10,059 bases of DNA from Synergistaceae bacterium (GTDB taxonomy: Bacteria; Synergistota; Synergistia; Synergistales; Aminobacteriaceae), in NCBI GenBank assembly GCA_017475805.1, contig JAFVEW010000183.1, positions 1-10,059 of the forward strand, in the 5' to 3' direction. Within the stretch, counting starts at the first letter, position 1; the number at the start of each line of letters is the position of its first letter. Shown piece by piece: positions 4,244-9,668 of this stretch. Both the position numbers and the translations under genes were made by a program. A model generated the notes under the pieces. It searched no databases. It had not been told where the DNA came from and saw only the letters and a list, made by a program, of their open reading frames with translations.

Positions 4244-5170
4244 ATGAAAAAAAATTTTTTATTGATATTACTCGCAATAATTTTTGCGTCAACGGCTTTT
4301 GCTGACGATAGCACTTCTGAAAAATTATTTAAGTTAGTTGAAGACGAAAACGCAACGGCTTCGCAAGTGAAAGACTTAATTGAAGCTGGAGCGGACGTTA
4401 ATTTTCACAGCAACGATCAGACACTTTTAATGCACGCTTACGAATATAGTAATTATGAAATTGCAAAAATTTTATTAGAATACGGAGCAGACGTCAATGA
4501 AAAATATGGATACGGCGGCTCTACTGTTTTGATAGAAGCTTTGTCAGAGATTGGCGAATTGTCTCCTGAGGCAAGAGAATTTGTAAAAGTTTTAATAAAA
4601 GCCGGTGCTGATGTTAACTTAAGAGATGATTTTAATTGTCCTCCTTTAGTATTTGCTGCTGAAGATACAGAGACCATAAAAATTTTACTTGATGCCGGAG
4701 CTGATGTAAATGCAAGCGACAACGAAGGTGAAACGATTTTAATTAGAGCGGCGGCTTTTAACCCCAATCCTGACGCTATAAAAATTTTATTGGACGCAGG
4801 GGCAGACCTCAATGCTAAAGACGAAAACGGCATGAATGCTTTAATTCGTGCGGCAGGCAGCAACGAAAATCCTGAGATTACTAAAATTCTTATTAATGCA
4901 GGTTTGAATGTAAATTCTCGCGATAATGAACGCAAAACTCCTTTAATATGGGCAACTACAGGTCTAACTGAAGACTTAGCCGAAATAGGTAACCCAGAAG
5001 TCGTTAAATTTTTATTGCAGGCTGGAGCAAATCCAAAATTAAAAGATAAATACGGAAAAACCGCTCTCGACTATGCAAGAGAAGAAAACATCACGCAAAT
5101 AAAAAAAATTCTTGAAGATTTTACTAAATCTAAATCGAATAAAAATAAAAATTCCAAGAAATCGCGTTAA
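4244..5170 (+). CDS. Exported ankyrin-repeat protein
   Basis: 308 residues. The N-terminus is a clear Sec signal peptide: two lysines, a hydrophobic core (LLILLAIIFA) and a likely cut after STAFA at residue 20, leaving a mature protein that starts DDSTSEK. Residues from about 28 to 290 form roughly seven ankyrin repeats with the consensus tail AGADVN (for example DAGADVNASD and DAGADLNAKD). The last 18 or so residues are almost all Lys, Asn and Ser, a basic tail suited to binding nucleic acid, anionic polymer or wall. It lacks LPXTG and has no second membrane segment. A ribosome binding site GGAGA lies at 4229-4233, 10 bases before the ATG. It starts 19 bases after wecB and ends 20 bases before the first Rpn-type gene, so all may share a transcript. 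Its partner is unknown; periplasmic or secreted protein binding is inferred from the fold. Confidence 0.85.
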   Translation: MKKNFLLILLAIIFASTAFADDSTSEKLFKLVEDENATASQVKDLIEAGADVNFHSNDQTLLMHAYEYSNYEIAKILLEYGADVNEKYGYGGSTVLIEALSEIGELSPEAREFVKVLIKAGADVNLRDDFNCPPLVFAAEDTETIKILLDAGADVNASDNEGETILIRAAAFNPNPDAIKILLDAGADLNAKDENGMNALIRAAGSNENPEITKILINAGLNVNSRDNERKTPLIWATTGLTEDLAEIGNPEVVKFLLQAGANPKLKDKYGKTALDYAREENITQIKKILEDFTKSKSNKNKNSKKSR

Positions 5171-5190: not shown

Positions 5191-6108
5191 ATGTCTGAAG
5201 AAAAAATTTTCCGTAACTCAAAAAATTCTATTTTTCTTGATTTATTCAGCATTCCTGAATATCTTTTGCAGCTTGTCAAAACTCTTCACCCGGAAATGAC
5301 GGACTTAAAAGAAAACGAAATTAGAATTTTGACGTTGCAAAGCGTGTTTTTTAATCGGCCTTATAATGATTTAGGTATACTTGTAAAAAATAAACTTTTG
5401 ATTTTAGTTGAAGCTCAAGCAACGTGGTCAATTAATATTTTAATAAGAATTTTGCTGTATCTTGCCTCGACTTATCATGACTACATACATGATAATAAAT
5501 TATCAGTTTATAGCGATAAAAAAATTGAGCTGCCTGAGCCGGAATTTTATGTGATTTATACAGGCGACAGGAAAATTGATAAAGATATTCTTTCACTTAA
5601 AGGAGATATTTTTGAAAATCCTGATGCAAAATTAGAATTAATCGCACGGGTTATTCACGCTGAAAATAAAAATGACATAATAGGCCAATACATAATCTTT
5701 TGTCATGTTTTAGACAGTCAGATAAAAATTTATGGCTACACTAAAAAAGCTCTTGAAAATACAATTAAGATTTGTCAAAATTTAGATGTCCTGAAAAAAT
5801 ATCTTGAAAGTAGAAAAAAGGAGGTCACGGATATAATGTTTATTCTGTTCGACCAAGAATATAACATAAAGTTATATGCTGAAGAATACGCAAGAAACCG
5901 CGAAATAAAAGGTGCTGTTGAAATGTGTAAAGAGTTCGGCTTTTCAATAAAGGATGTTATCAAAAAAATCGCCGAAAAATTTGGCATTGCCAAAGAACGC
6001 GCCGAAAAATATGTCAATGAGTTTTGGAACAGCAGGCCGGAAGATTATGCCGTTGATCTTTCGGAATTTGAAGGACTTGAAGAAATGCGGAAGGAATATA
6101 CAAAATGA
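5191..6108 (+). CDS. Rpn-type PD-(D/E)XK nuclease, full-length form
   Basis: 305 residues of the Rpn / PD-(D/E)XK 'nuclease family transposase' type. The N-terminal region has KNSIFLDLF, and the core has NDLGILVKNKLLILVEAQ, giving Asp60, Glu74 and Gln76 as the D...ExQ active-site triad (Gln in place of Lys is usual in this family). IRILLYLASTYHDYI follows. The C-terminal third (from about 205) is charged and helical, with a helix-turn-helix-like end rich in Lys and Glu. Such proteins are DNA endonucleases first found to promote RecA-independent recombination; in E. coli they act in phage defence. The ATG has no Shine-Dalgarno sequence. A perfect one, AAGGAGGT, lies inside the gene at 5818-5825 with an in-frame ATG at 5836, suggesting a second, shorter product. 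The gene sits between the ankyrin gene and murA, both on the same strand. Not a transposase in practice: no inverted repeats flank it. Confidence 0.85.
   Translation: MSEEKIFRNSKNSIFLDLFSIPEYLLQLVKTLHPEMTDLKENEIRILTLQSVFFNRPYNDLGILVKNKLLILVEAQATWSINILIRILLYLASTYHDYIHDNKLSVYSDKKIELPEPEFYVIYTGDRKIDKDILSLKGDIFENPDAKLELIARVIHAENKNDIIGQYIIFCHVLDSQIKIYGYTKKALENTIKICQNLDVLKKYLESRKKEVTDIMFILFDQEYNIKLYAEEYARNREIKGAVEMCKEFGFSIKDVIKKIAEKFGIAKERAEKYVNEFWNSRPEDYAVDLSEFEGLEEMRKEYTK
5818..5825 (+). promoter_or_regulatory. Internal Shine-Dalgarno sequence within the first Rpn-type gene
   Basis: AAGGAGGT is a full anti-Shine-Dalgarno match inside coding sequence (codons for Lys-Lys-Glu-Val). It lies 10 bases before an in-frame ATG at 5836-5838, with an ATA at 5833 just before it. 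It is stronger than anything upstream of the gene's own start at 5191. Confidence 0.65.
5836..6108 (+). CDS. Predicted intragenic small protein (RpnS-like) from the first Rpn-type gene
   Basis: In-frame internal start giving a 90-residue protein identical to residues 216-305 of the full-length nuclease. It begins MFILFDQEYNIKLY, continues through IKGAVEMCKEFGFS and ends with a Lys/Glu-rich helix pair; it contains none of the nuclease triad. Evidence is the perfect Shine-Dalgarno sequence at 5818-5825 and the ATG 10 bases later; the spacing is slightly long. In E. coli rpn genes an internally initiated C-terminal protein inhibits the full-length toxic nuclease, so by analogy this would be the antitoxin and oligomerisation partner. 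This role is inferred from layout; the internal start is a direct sequence observation. Confidence 0.5.
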   Translation: MFILFDQEYNIKLYAEEYARNREIKGAVEMCKEFGFSIKDVIKKIAEKFGIAKERAEKYVNEFWNSRPEDYAVDLSEFEGLEEMRKEYTK

Positions 6109-6147: not shown

Positions 6148-6155
6148 AAAGGAGG
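6148..6155 (+). promoter_or_regulatory. murA Shine-Dalgarno sequence pointing to an ATA start
   Basis: AAAGGAGG is a near-perfect ribosome binding site. It is 20 bases from the ATG at 6176, too far for normal use, but 8 bases from an in-frame ATA at 6164. No ATG, GTG or TTG lies in frame between the upstream in-frame stop (6131-6133) and 6176. Confidence 0.6.
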
Positions 6156-6175
6156 AAGTTTCAATAGAAAACATA

Positions 6176-7435
6176 ATGAAAATCAACGGCGGCAAACCGT
6201 TAAAAGGCACGATAAAAACTCAAGGAGCCAAGAACGCCGCGCTCCCTGTTATTGCTGTGTGTTTATTGCTGAGAGATGGAATTTTAACACTTGATAACGT
6301 CCCGGATTTATATGACATTAACACTATGCTTGAACTTATAAAAGATTTAGGCGTCGAAATCGAAATTAACCGCGACGATAAAAACTCTCAAGTAATTTTC
6401 AAAGTTCCAAGCGAAATAAAATGGGAAGTCTCGGAGACTTTAGCTCGAAAAATGCGAGGATCTTCGCTTTTATTAGGACCTCTACTCGCAAGCTGCGGGA
6501 AGGTTTCTTTGCCTTTGCCCGGAGGCTGCTCAATCGGTGCAAGACCCATAGATTTACACTTAAAAGGCTTGAAACAAATGGGAGCAGAAATAGAAATTCA
6601 AAACGGCGTCGTTCACGCTAAAGTTAACGGAAGACTGCGAGGCCGGAGAATTTATCTCGACTTTCCTTCAGTCGGAGCAACTGAAAATTTAATGATGGCT
6701 GCGTCGCTCGCTCAAGGCGAGACTATAATCGAAAATATTGCACGTGAACCTGAAATTGATAATCTTGCGGCTGTGTTGCGCTGTGTCGGCGTTCCCGTTG
6801 AACTTGAAGGCGTCGGCGGCGTCAGAATACAAGGCGTTGAAAAAGTTAAATCAGGCCGTGAGAAAGTCATTCCCGACAGAATTGAAGCATGTACTTACAT
6901 TTTAGCCGGCGTTATGACAAATAGTCATATTAAAGTTGAAGACGTCGTGCCTTCGCATATTGACGCGATATTAGCTAAACTTGAAGAAAGCGGAGCAAAA
7001 TTCAAAGTCAAAAAAGATACCGTCGAAATTTTTCCGTCAAAAAAACGTCTTCACCCTGTAACTATTAAAACTATGCCTTATCCGGGTTTCCCGACTGACG
7101 CACAGCCTCAAATGGCAGCGACTTTAGCTCTTGCTCAGGGAGTCAGCAGTATTGAAGAAAGCGTCTTTCAAGCGAGATTTTTATATGCTCAAGAATTAAA
7201 TCGAATGGGCGCAGATATTAAAATTTCCCGCGATGTCGCCGTTATTCGAGGTGTCGAAAAATTACAAGGGGCTCGCGTTAAAGCTACGGATTTAAGAGCA
7301 GGAGCAGCTTTGATAATGGCCGGGCTTGCGGCTGAAGGCGAAACAATAATTGACGACATGGTCCACGTTTGGCGCGGCTACGAAGCTATCGACAAAAAAT
7401 TAAAATCTTTGGGGGCACAGGTTGAGCTTCTCTAA
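6176..7435 (+). CDS. murA: UDP-N-acetylglucosamine 1-carboxyvinyltransferase (MurA)
   Basis: Cytosolic enzyme of the first committed peptidoglycan step: enolpyruvyl transfer from PEP to UDP-GlcNAc. The EPSP-synthase fold is complete over 419 residues. Motifs: GAKNAALPV with the substrate-binding Lys19 (Lys22 in E. coli) and Asn20, the catalytic loop LPGGCSIGARPIDLH with Cys118 (Cys115 in E. coli, the residue hit by fosfomycin, so the enzyme should be sensitive), and YPGFPTDAQPQ near residue 302. From the ATG, only three residues precede NGGKPLKG, about three fewer than in E. coli MurA. The in-frame ATA at 6164, 8 bases after AAAGGAGG, would add I/M-E-N-I and restore the normal N-terminus, so true initiation may be at 6164. 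The 3' end overlaps the next gene by 14 bases. One strong binding site suggests high translation despite the uncommon start. Confidence 0.96.
   Translation: MKINGGKPLKGTIKTQGAKNAALPVIAVCLLLRDGILTLDNVPDLYDINTMLELIKDLGVEIEINRDDKNSQVIFKVPSEIKWEVSETLARKMRGSSLLLGPLLASCGKVSLPLPGGCSIGARPIDLHLKGLKQMGAEIEIQNGVVHAKVNGRLRGRRIYLDFPSVGATENLMMAASLAQGETIIENIAREPEIDNLAAVLRCVGVPVELEGVGGVRIQGVEKVKSGREKVIPDRIEACTYILAGVMTNSHIKVEDVVPSHIDAILAKLEESGAKFKVKKDTVEIFPSKKRLHPVTIKTMPYPGFPTDAQPQMAATLALAQGVSSIEESVFQARFLYAQELNRMGADIKISRDVAVIRGVEKLQGARVKATDLRAGAALIMAGLAAEGETIIDDMVHVWRGYEAIDKKLKSLGAQVELL
7411..7415 (+). promoter_or_regulatory. Ribosome binding site inside murA supporting a TTG start
   Basis: GGGGG within the last codons of murA lies six bases before TTG at 7422. 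It supports the overlapping TTG start of the P-loop/Asp23-like gene over any later start, which would cut into the strand leading to Walker A. Confidence 0.5.
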
Positions 7436-8915: not shown

Positions 8916-9668
8916 ATGAATAATGATTTTATGAATTTAGCACTTGAAGATAATATTCCTTGTGTCGAAGAAATATTGCGCGTAATATTATGTAAACCTG
9001 ATTTAATAGTTAAGACTGTTAGGACTCAGAAATTTTTTCAGGGCTTCAAGCGTTCTATTTATCTTGATGTTTATGCTGAAGACAGTAAAGGAGTTTTGTA
9101 TAACATAGAAATTCAGCAGGCTGATGAAGGTGCAGATCCCCGCCGCGCGAGATTTCATACTGGAATGATTGACGCTCATAGTCTTAAGGCCGGACAGGAT
9201 TTTAAGGAGCTCCCTGAATGTTATGTTATCTTTATAACTCTCAATGATGTTCTTGGACTTAATCGAGCTATATATACTATTCATAAATATATAGACGGAA
9301 GTTTGAAACCTTTTGATGACGGCTCTCATCTGATATATGTCAATGGTTCGGCAGAAGATGATGGAACGGAACTTGGAAAATTAATTCACGACTTGCGCTG
9401 TACGAAAGCCGATGAGATGTATTTTCCGCGTCTTGCGGCAAGGGTAAAATTTTTGAAGGAAGATGAGGAAGGAGTAAAAATTATGAGCGATTATTTTGAA
9501 GAACAACGGGCGAAAGCCGTAGCAAAAGCTGTAGCAAAAGCCGAGAAAAAAAACACAGAAAATCTCGTGTTAAATCTCCTAAAAATGGGCAAATTATCTC
9601 TTGAAGAAATAGCGAAGTGTTCCGGCCTCACTCTTAAAAGAGTCCAAACACTCGCAAGTACTTTATAA
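8916..9668 (+). CDS. Rpn-type PD-(D/E)XK nuclease (second copy), full-length form
   Basis: 250 residues from the first ATG. The core matches the Rpn / PD-(D/E)XK 'nuclease family transposase' group: LALEDNIPCVEEILRVIL, then IYLDVYAEDSKGVLYNIEIQ with Asp51, Glu65 and Gln67. The Asp-to-Glu spacing (13 residues between) and the ExQ ending equal those of the first copy. GELGKLIHDLR-like helices follow (here TELGKLIHDL), then an Ala-Lys-Val linker and an HTH-like tail (LSLEEIAKCSGL). The frame stays open upstream to 8862 with a plausible family N-terminus (KKVTLKTRKEIAKLSL) but no ATG, GTG or TTG; an ATA at 8865 is the candidate. The ATG has no good ribosome binding site. A strong one at 9469-9474 serves an in-frame ATG at 9483. 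Inserted between the glycosylase gene and uppS. Expected to act as a DNA endonuclease in defence or recombination. Confidence 0.82.
   Translation: MNNDFMNLALEDNIPCVEEILRVILCKPDLIVKTVRTQKFFQGFKRSIYLDVYAEDSKGVLYNIEIQQADEGADPRRARFHTGMIDAHSLKAGQDFKELPECYVIFITLNDVLGLNRAIYTIHKYIDGSLKPFDDGSHLIYVNGSAEDDGTELGKLIHDLRCTKADEMYFPRLAARVKFLKEDEEGVKIMSDYFEEQRAKAVAKAVAKAEKKNTENLVLNLLKMGKLSLEEIAKCSGLTLKRVQTLASTL
9469..9474 (+). promoter_or_regulatory. Internal Shine-Dalgarno sequence within the second Rpn-type gene
   Basis: AAGGAG, part of the longer purine run GAGGAAGGAG (9465-9474), lies 8 bases before the in-frame ATG at 9483. Ideal spacing, and much stronger than anything upstream of the full-length start. 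Confidence 0.65.
9483..9668 (+). CDS. Predicted intragenic small protein (RpnS-like) from the second Rpn-type gene
   Basis: In-frame internal start giving a 61-residue protein equal to residues 190-250 of the full-length nuclease. It begins MSDYFEEQRAKAVAK, has an Ala-Lys-Val repeat, then a helix and an HTH-like tail ending in SGLTLKRVQTLASTL. No nuclease residues are included. AAGGAG sits 8 bases upstream at ideal spacing. By analogy with E. coli rpn genes, this would be an antitoxin binding the same C-terminal region of the full-length protein. Both Rpn-type genes in this window have the same arrangement, which strengthens the call. Function is inferred. Confidence 0.55.
   Translation: MSDYFEEQRAKAVAKAVAKAEKKNTENLVLNLLKMGKLSLEEIAKCSGLTLKRVQTLASTL
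9510..9542 (+). repeat. Short in-frame tandem repeat coding (Ala-Val-Ala-Lys)n
   Basis: Two near-identical 12-base units (GCCGTAGCAAAA at 9516-9527 and GCTGTAGCAAAA at 9528-9539), preceded by GCGAAA and followed by GCC, encode AKAVAKAVAKA. This is a helical linker just inside the predicted small protein. The units are a multiple of three, so copy-number slippage would change linker length without breaking the frame. Confidence 0.6.

Follow-up and report, generated by a model that had tools for sequence, protein, structure and literature searches.

The window analysed here, 10,059 nucleotides of a Synergistaceae bacterium (GCA_017475805.1, contig JAFVEW010000183.1), carries between wecB and murA a gene that is most likely an intragenic toxin-antitoxin gene of the RpnL/RpnS type missed by Pfam and NCBIfam. 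With a probability of about 0.8, we propose that it specifies two proteins, an Rpn-type nuclease and a putative inhibitor translated from an internal start. The arrangement is a known one, found here in a distant, unclassified branch: in Escherichia coli, RpnS is made from an internal start and binds and blocks RpnL (PMC10327210, a preprint, represented here, like the other papers cited, by the excerpts available). The main features are as follows, where A1 is an alignment of 71 sequences comprising the window protein and 70 of the 120 matches listed, out of 1,265.

5191..6108, + strand: full-length RpnL-like gene of 305 codons, from its frame and translation
5368..5370, + strand: codon of D60, the proposed active-site Asp, invariant in the 71 sequences of A1
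5410..5418, + strand: codons of E74-x-Q76, invariant in A1, with the ExQ...R spacing of RpnA E82/Q84/R94
5446..5448, + strand: codon of R86, invariant in A1, 12 residues past E74 as in RpnA
5818..5825, + strand: internal Shine-Dalgarno (SD) sequence AAGGAGGT, codons K209 K210 E211 V212
5836..5838, + strand: internal start codon ATG, M216, conserved at residue 216 or 215 in all 36 sequences that span the site
5836..6108, + strand: internal frame for an RpnS-like product of 90 amino acids, its stop ending at 6108

The internal ATG is in frame, as (5836−5191)/3 equals 215 and it forms residue 216 of 305. The sequence-only reading had placed a perfect SD sequence at 5818-5825 before an in-frame ATG at 5836 with a product of 90 residues, and its positions, frame and length were all exact. 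We gathered 38 distinct homologous frames from related loci (tblastn, E up to 1e-20), 36 of which span the site, the window included, while L008 and L097 were left out because of an early stop. All 36 possess the ATG, 33 of them at residue 216 and three distant ones (L053-L055) at residue 215. The SD duplex of the window gene reaches −12.1 kcal/mol, and the internal site is the strongest anti-SD match of the entire gene in 33 of the 36 (exceptions L090, L012 and L096).

Codon choice at the site is biased toward G-ending codons. Column 211 is G-ending in 34 of 35 cases against 18.1 expected and column 210 in 27 of 28 against 14.3, making them the two most G-biased among 78 Lys/Glu/Gln columns with at least 10 such codons each. 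When both codons are pooled, the 14 Synergistaceae genes (window included; Synergistaceae in these counts denotes the family of genome G001, to which L001, a Fretibacterium, belongs) gave 28/28 against 12.6 expected, and 20 representatives below 60% identity gave 31/32 against 17.3; the corresponding probabilities of 1e-11 and 1e-8 assume independent sequences and are thus overstated. Synonymous-codon shuffling within the window gene resulted in p = 0.012. Over the 36 genes the median p was 0.16, with a combined Fisher value of 3.9e-6 (2.7e-4 for the 20 representatives). The check proposed in the sequence-only reading comes out in its favor: homologues conserve the internal SD and ATG beyond what the amino acids need.

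A genomic background was obtained from 400 kb of genome G004, in which 1,711 in-frame internal ATGs lie in the last 60% of 261 long frames. Only 6 of them have a site of −11.4 kcal/mol or better, spread over three frames, one of which is rpn; a comparable internal site thus exists in 2 of the other 260 long frames. Together, the shuffles, this background and the codon-ending bias rule out a chance origin of the site. Spacing is no objection to its use either: the 11 nucleotides from GGAGG to ATG are ordinary in G004, where 53 of 60 GGAGG-ATG pairs are spaced by 7-12 nucleotides, eight of them by exactly 11. Taken together, these sequence comparisons show that the internal start is kept by selection as a start. 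An internal promoter was also considered; sigma-70-like matches occur upstream of the site on the + strand at 5654, 5700, 5753 and 5772, but the region is over-rich in such matches (16 versus 6.5 in shuffles) and we make no claim for them.

A second line of evidence comes from stretches that hold the C-terminal part only. They were found on searching 12 genomes behind related loci, with none in the window itself. Among 11 that we examined, nine lie downstream of the gene, one upstream (L070, with a short N-terminal remnant) and one stands alone (L080). An ATG with an SD survives at the place of the internal start in four of them (L066, −7.0; L069, −12.1; L070, −12.4; L078, −6.9 kcal/mol), in two cases with an SD as strong as that of the resident gene. 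In the remaining copies the start, the SD or the frame is gone; L068, for example, has a broken frame and AAGGAAGT at the site (−5.6 kcal/mol).

The long helix that follows the internal Met contains variable four-residue repeats in the relatives. Measured from the F of LFDQ to the VxxC motif in 25 of 26 given sequences (L050 was left out), linker length is a multiple of four in 25/25, namely in 17/17 resident genes and 8/8 separate copies, with eight different values (20, 24, 28, 32, 36, 40, 44 and 52); visible repeats such as EKRG, QGKL and EGRA account for the differences. Each of the eight separate copies differs in linker length from its own resident gene, always by a multiple of four. These copies belong to L001, L003, L005, L009, L014 and L071; two of the eight are clostridial, and four of the eight retain both a start and its SD. 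Not counted were relatives whose C-terminal domain is of another kind (for example L012, L083, L053 and L054), because they offer no homologous anchor; a looser linker pattern returns out-of-phase values for them.

The small frame also persists where the nuclease half does not. Five relatives (L076, L077, L078, L079 and L082) have an interrupted, split or incomplete nuclease half but retain the ATG, an intact C-terminal frame and a strong SD of −12.1 kcal/mol or better; in a sixth case, L097, the ATG is likewise present, behind a weaker site (−9.8 kcal/mol). Any single one of these interruptions could be an assembly error. L074 was not counted among them, as only its first 23 or so residues differ and its triad is intact. 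Combined with the separate copies, these cases indicate that in the relatives the C-terminal piece is a separable frame.

As for the full-length product, its N-terminal domain is predicted to resemble PD-(D/E)XK nucleases and its C-terminal domain to be helical. D60, E74, Q76 and R86 form the D-ExQ-R set of the RpnA kind, with the E-Q and E-R spacings of RpnA, and the D-E-Q residues are present in 33 of the 38 DNA-derived frames; in four of the others this part is interrupted or incomplete, and in L029 Glu replaces Gln. The invariant triad lies upstream of residue 216, and the 90-residue product is accordingly devoid of D60, E74 and Q76 and holds the C-terminal helical region only, as had been proposed. 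Database models recognise little of this. The window protein has no relevant Pfam or NCBIfam match at E up to 1 (neither TIGR01784 nor a Pfam nuclease model), and the PHROGs and PADLOC libraries gave nothing relevant for it. PDDEXK_2 weakly matches four of the 71 members of A1 (best E 6e-4), and a scan of 10 more distant relatives gave four sub-threshold matches to TIGR01784 (L053, L054 and L086 at the C-terminus, L094 at the N-terminus). A structure model of the full-length protein has a predicted local distance difference test (pLDDT) score of 85, with weak matches to the PD-(D/E)XK fold. The model of the small product (mean pLDDT 72) has a long helix at residues 7-34 and helices at 38-49 and 53-64, in keeping with the account of RpnA-S in PMC10327210. 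The RpnA-S structure itself (7TH0) was looked for and is not among the structure matches listed, and a sequence search of solved structures with the full alignment yielded no match. Searching them with the C-terminal alignment returned 19 rows headed by designed helical proteins (E 1.7e-4 and higher), which we attribute to composition. One scan of viral_contigs gave three pattern matches with no relative among them. The nearest named relatives are rumen and gut metagenome assemblies of Synergistaceae and Fretibacterium, and 30 of 81 family genomes contain matches to the protein at E up to 1e-5, distant ones included.

The outer ATG at 5191 has no SD, as the sequence-only reading had stated, its best duplex being +0.8 kcal/mol against −12.1 kcal/mol internally. 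Among relatives, the outer SD is weak in L066, L067 and L002 (−2.1 to −2.9) and moderate in L003, L070 and L075 (−7.3 to −7.9). The outer start overlaps or abuts the wecB stop in L066-L069 and in the window trails an ankyrin-repeat gene by 20 nucleotides, so that its translation may depend on coupling to the upstream gene.

4244..5170, + strand: ankyrin-repeat gene, its stop 20 nucleotides before the full-length start

Several clostridial relatives possess a strong SD at the outer start, and weak outer initiation is therefore a feature of near kin and not of the whole family. The proposed combination of strong internal and weak external initiation thus holds for this gene and its nearest kin but not for all relatives. 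In three further loci (L071, L072 and L073, of genomes G004, G050 and G064), no ATG, GTG or TTG occurs between the upstream stop and conserved residue 13, and a strong SD (−10.5, −10.5 and −10.6 kcal/mol) stands before an ATA located where the window has its ATG, or close to it, much as in the murA start region (see below). It is possible that rpn starts at AUA in these three, which would hold the toxin low.

The published Rpn systems provide the closest comparison. E. coli rpnA-E and rpnP2 and the RpnL/RpnS pair of Clostridioides difficile, where RpnS is also made from the cloned gene (PMC10327210), share several traits with the window gene: a strong ribosome-binding site and an in-frame start within the nuclease gene, a small C-terminal helical product, four-residue repeats that begin soon after the internal Met and vary in number, and extra copies of the small gene near some relatives. 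In the excerpts of that preprint, separate rpnS copies lie downstream of rpnC and rpnE, and RpnS varies by four-residue repeats. RpnA has the same D-ExQ-R residues with the same ExQ-to-R spacing (PMC5350276), but its D-to-E spacing is 19 (D63-E82) compared with 14 here, and the distance from the internal SD to the ATG is longer here (E211 to M216 versus E241 to M244). The window protein further differs from known RpnL proteins in lacking a TIGR01784 or Pfam nuclease match, in that its near kin are fixed between wecB and murA, and in an outer start without an SD, or with an SD and AUA in three relatives. A literature search, with most subscription journals outside its reach, returned PMC10327210 as the only paper with both RpnS and RpnL terms; also listed were the 2017 paper on E. 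coli Rpn and a review from 2025 in which intragenic antitoxins are mentioned (PMC12707154).

According to the model that we favor, the 305-residue product would be an Rpn-type nuclease, PD-(D/E)XK with D-ExQ-R residues, of which little is translated because no ribosome-binding site precedes its start. The smaller protein of 90 residues, started at the internal ATG behind the very strong SD, would be made in excess and would consist of the C-terminal helical dimerisation domain alone. By binding the matching domain of the nuclease, it would hold the nuclease inactive until phage infection or another stress frees it. The comparative evidence supports the interpretation of an intragenic antitoxin given by the sequence-only reading, and the small product is very probably the nuclease's own antidote; we infer the protein levels, an active and toxic nuclease, the antitoxin action and the release by phage or other stress. 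The E. coli precedent cited for it stands insofar as RpnS from an internal start blocks RpnL; release is left open in the excerpts of PMC10327210, which describe phage defence for one plasmid Rpn system only, protecting against certain T-even phages. The earlier refuting case of a lost SD or ATG beside a retained nuclease triad is approached by one of the 36 sequences: in L096 the triad is present and the site is clearly weakened (−8.9 kcal/mol, not the best window of its gene).

It is also conceivable, if unlikely, that the internal start is genuine and that its product, instead of inhibiting the nuclease, helps to complete or assemble it as a structural partner. The selection described above acts on the start and does not in itself speak for inhibition, and Cas11d, made within cas10d, offers a precedent (PMC10327210). 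The C-terminal domain resembles a long helix with a helix-turn-helix-like bundle, which fits such a role. A fixed subunit, however, would hardly be expected to occur in separate copies whose repeat length is unlike that of the resident gene in 8/8 measured cases, or to be retained where the nuclease is interrupted, and it is inhibition that was demonstrated for the E. coli Rpn proteins (PMC10327210).

We consider it very improbable that no internal protein is made and that the K-K-E-V...I-M stretch is conserved for protein reasons with an accidental SD. E211 is invariant among the 71 sequences of A1, with K210, V212 and M216 nearly so, and AAG GAG GTN partly follows from this; besides, shuffle tests on single genes were mostly not significant. 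By contrast, the codon bias here exceeds that in the remainder of each gene, and the codon of residue 210 is still G-ending in 12 of the 14 sequences in which this residue is not Lys (exceptions L053 and L095). Moreover, the SD-ATG pair is kept in L053-L055 with the Met one codon earlier, and some separate copies begin at the site. Internal SD-like sites have been proposed to slow ribosomes, yet a programmed folding pause or a coupling signal in place of a start is the least probable explanation of all, given an in-frame ATG at usable spacing in 36/36 and separate copies that begin there.

The gene is located between wecB and murA in 12/12 of the closer Synergistaceae loci with both flanks (L066-L077), as in the window. 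Only the murA flank is in view in L078 and L079, and neither flanking gene is found at L084 and L085 (distant family members), at the lone copy L080 or at the clostridial relatives. A gap of about 0.9-2 kb separates wecB from rpn in L070, L072, L073 and L075. The ankyrin-repeat gene at 4244-5170 lies in the corresponding gap of the window; it matches the PADLOC candidate-defence model PDC-M72A (E 1.9e-36), which may merely reflect ankyrin repeats.

6176..7435, + strand: murA, following rpn, with an SD at 6148-6156, 7-8 nucleotides before an in-frame ATA at 6164

We surveyed 72 distinct murA starts (window 6148-6187, L068, L074, L079 and L149-L218, leaving out L174 and L178, where the start lies beyond the match or the sequence is too short). 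In 38 of the 72 genes of the family, the best-placed SD precedes an in-frame ATA (34) or ATC (4), and the first standard start, usually four or six codons later, is poor in SD terms; the SD itself is weak in four of the 38 (L068, L162, L169 and L177, −3.5 to −4.5). The other 34 were assigned a standard start (ATG 18, GTG 13, TTG 3), mostly at an SD, L188 and L197 being examples with no strong SD before it. The pattern suggests that murA, an essential gene, has a conserved non-canonical start. In Staphylococcus aureus, conserved AUA/AUU starts behind strong SDs lower expression (PMC13009471, excerpts), and the mechanism therefore has a precedent. The infC, ccpN and cvfC1 genes described there have AUA behind a strong SD, as do murA and the rpnL of the three relatives, but they are other genes in another phylum, and the starts proposed here are read from sequence alone. 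A literature search for a non-canonical murA start found no report, although one query was crude and also matched "synergistic". AUA as a general start was rejected: in 400 kb of G004, four of 89 frames with a GGAGG site showed it, and we judged it convincing only at murA and rpn.

The window holds a second Rpn gene, this one recognised by TIGR01784 (E 3.4e-14).

8916..9668, + strand: second Rpn gene, with its own internal SD AAGGAG at 9469-9474 and ATG at 9483 (61 amino acids)

Its D51/E65/Q67/R77, invariant or nearly so, are spaced like D60/E74/Q76/R86, and an internal SD and ATG again precede the C-terminal part, with a weaker SD (−7.6 kcal/mol). Profile comparison gave no convincing homology between the two genes, aligning the C-terminal part only, at a probability of 4%. 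Of 29 rows compared for the second gene, this window's own among them, 17 have their strongest SD at the aligned internal site and 12 do not; L134, counted with the 17, is truncated before the site. Elsewhere, frame 1056-2150 presumably joins ribose-5-phosphate isomerase B and uracil phosphoribosyltransferase; tblastn matches cover all 364 of its residues in L066 and L071.

The separate copies raise the possibility, which we regard as doubtful, that the wecB-murA interval of gut Synergistaceae is a store of length-coded antitoxins, with a resident RpnL/RpnS and mismatched RpnS copies. In E. coli RpnC, the addition of a single repeat was enough to abolish cross-inhibition (PMC10327210). For this reason the extra copies would not act on the resident toxin; they would instead neutralise toxins of other repeat lengths, from relatives or earlier versions, and would permit the length of the resident toxin to change.

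The conservation described here offers evidence at the sequence level, and independently of expression, that selection maintains the start of an intragenic antitoxin, in organisms outside the species named in the available part of PMC10327210 and for a gene overlooked by database models. The codon signature AAG GAG GTN ... ATG and the linkers growing in steps of four provide a test that can be used on other unannotated nucleases, and with the separate copies, whose lengths are mismatched, it becomes directly testable what sets RpnL/RpnS specificity.
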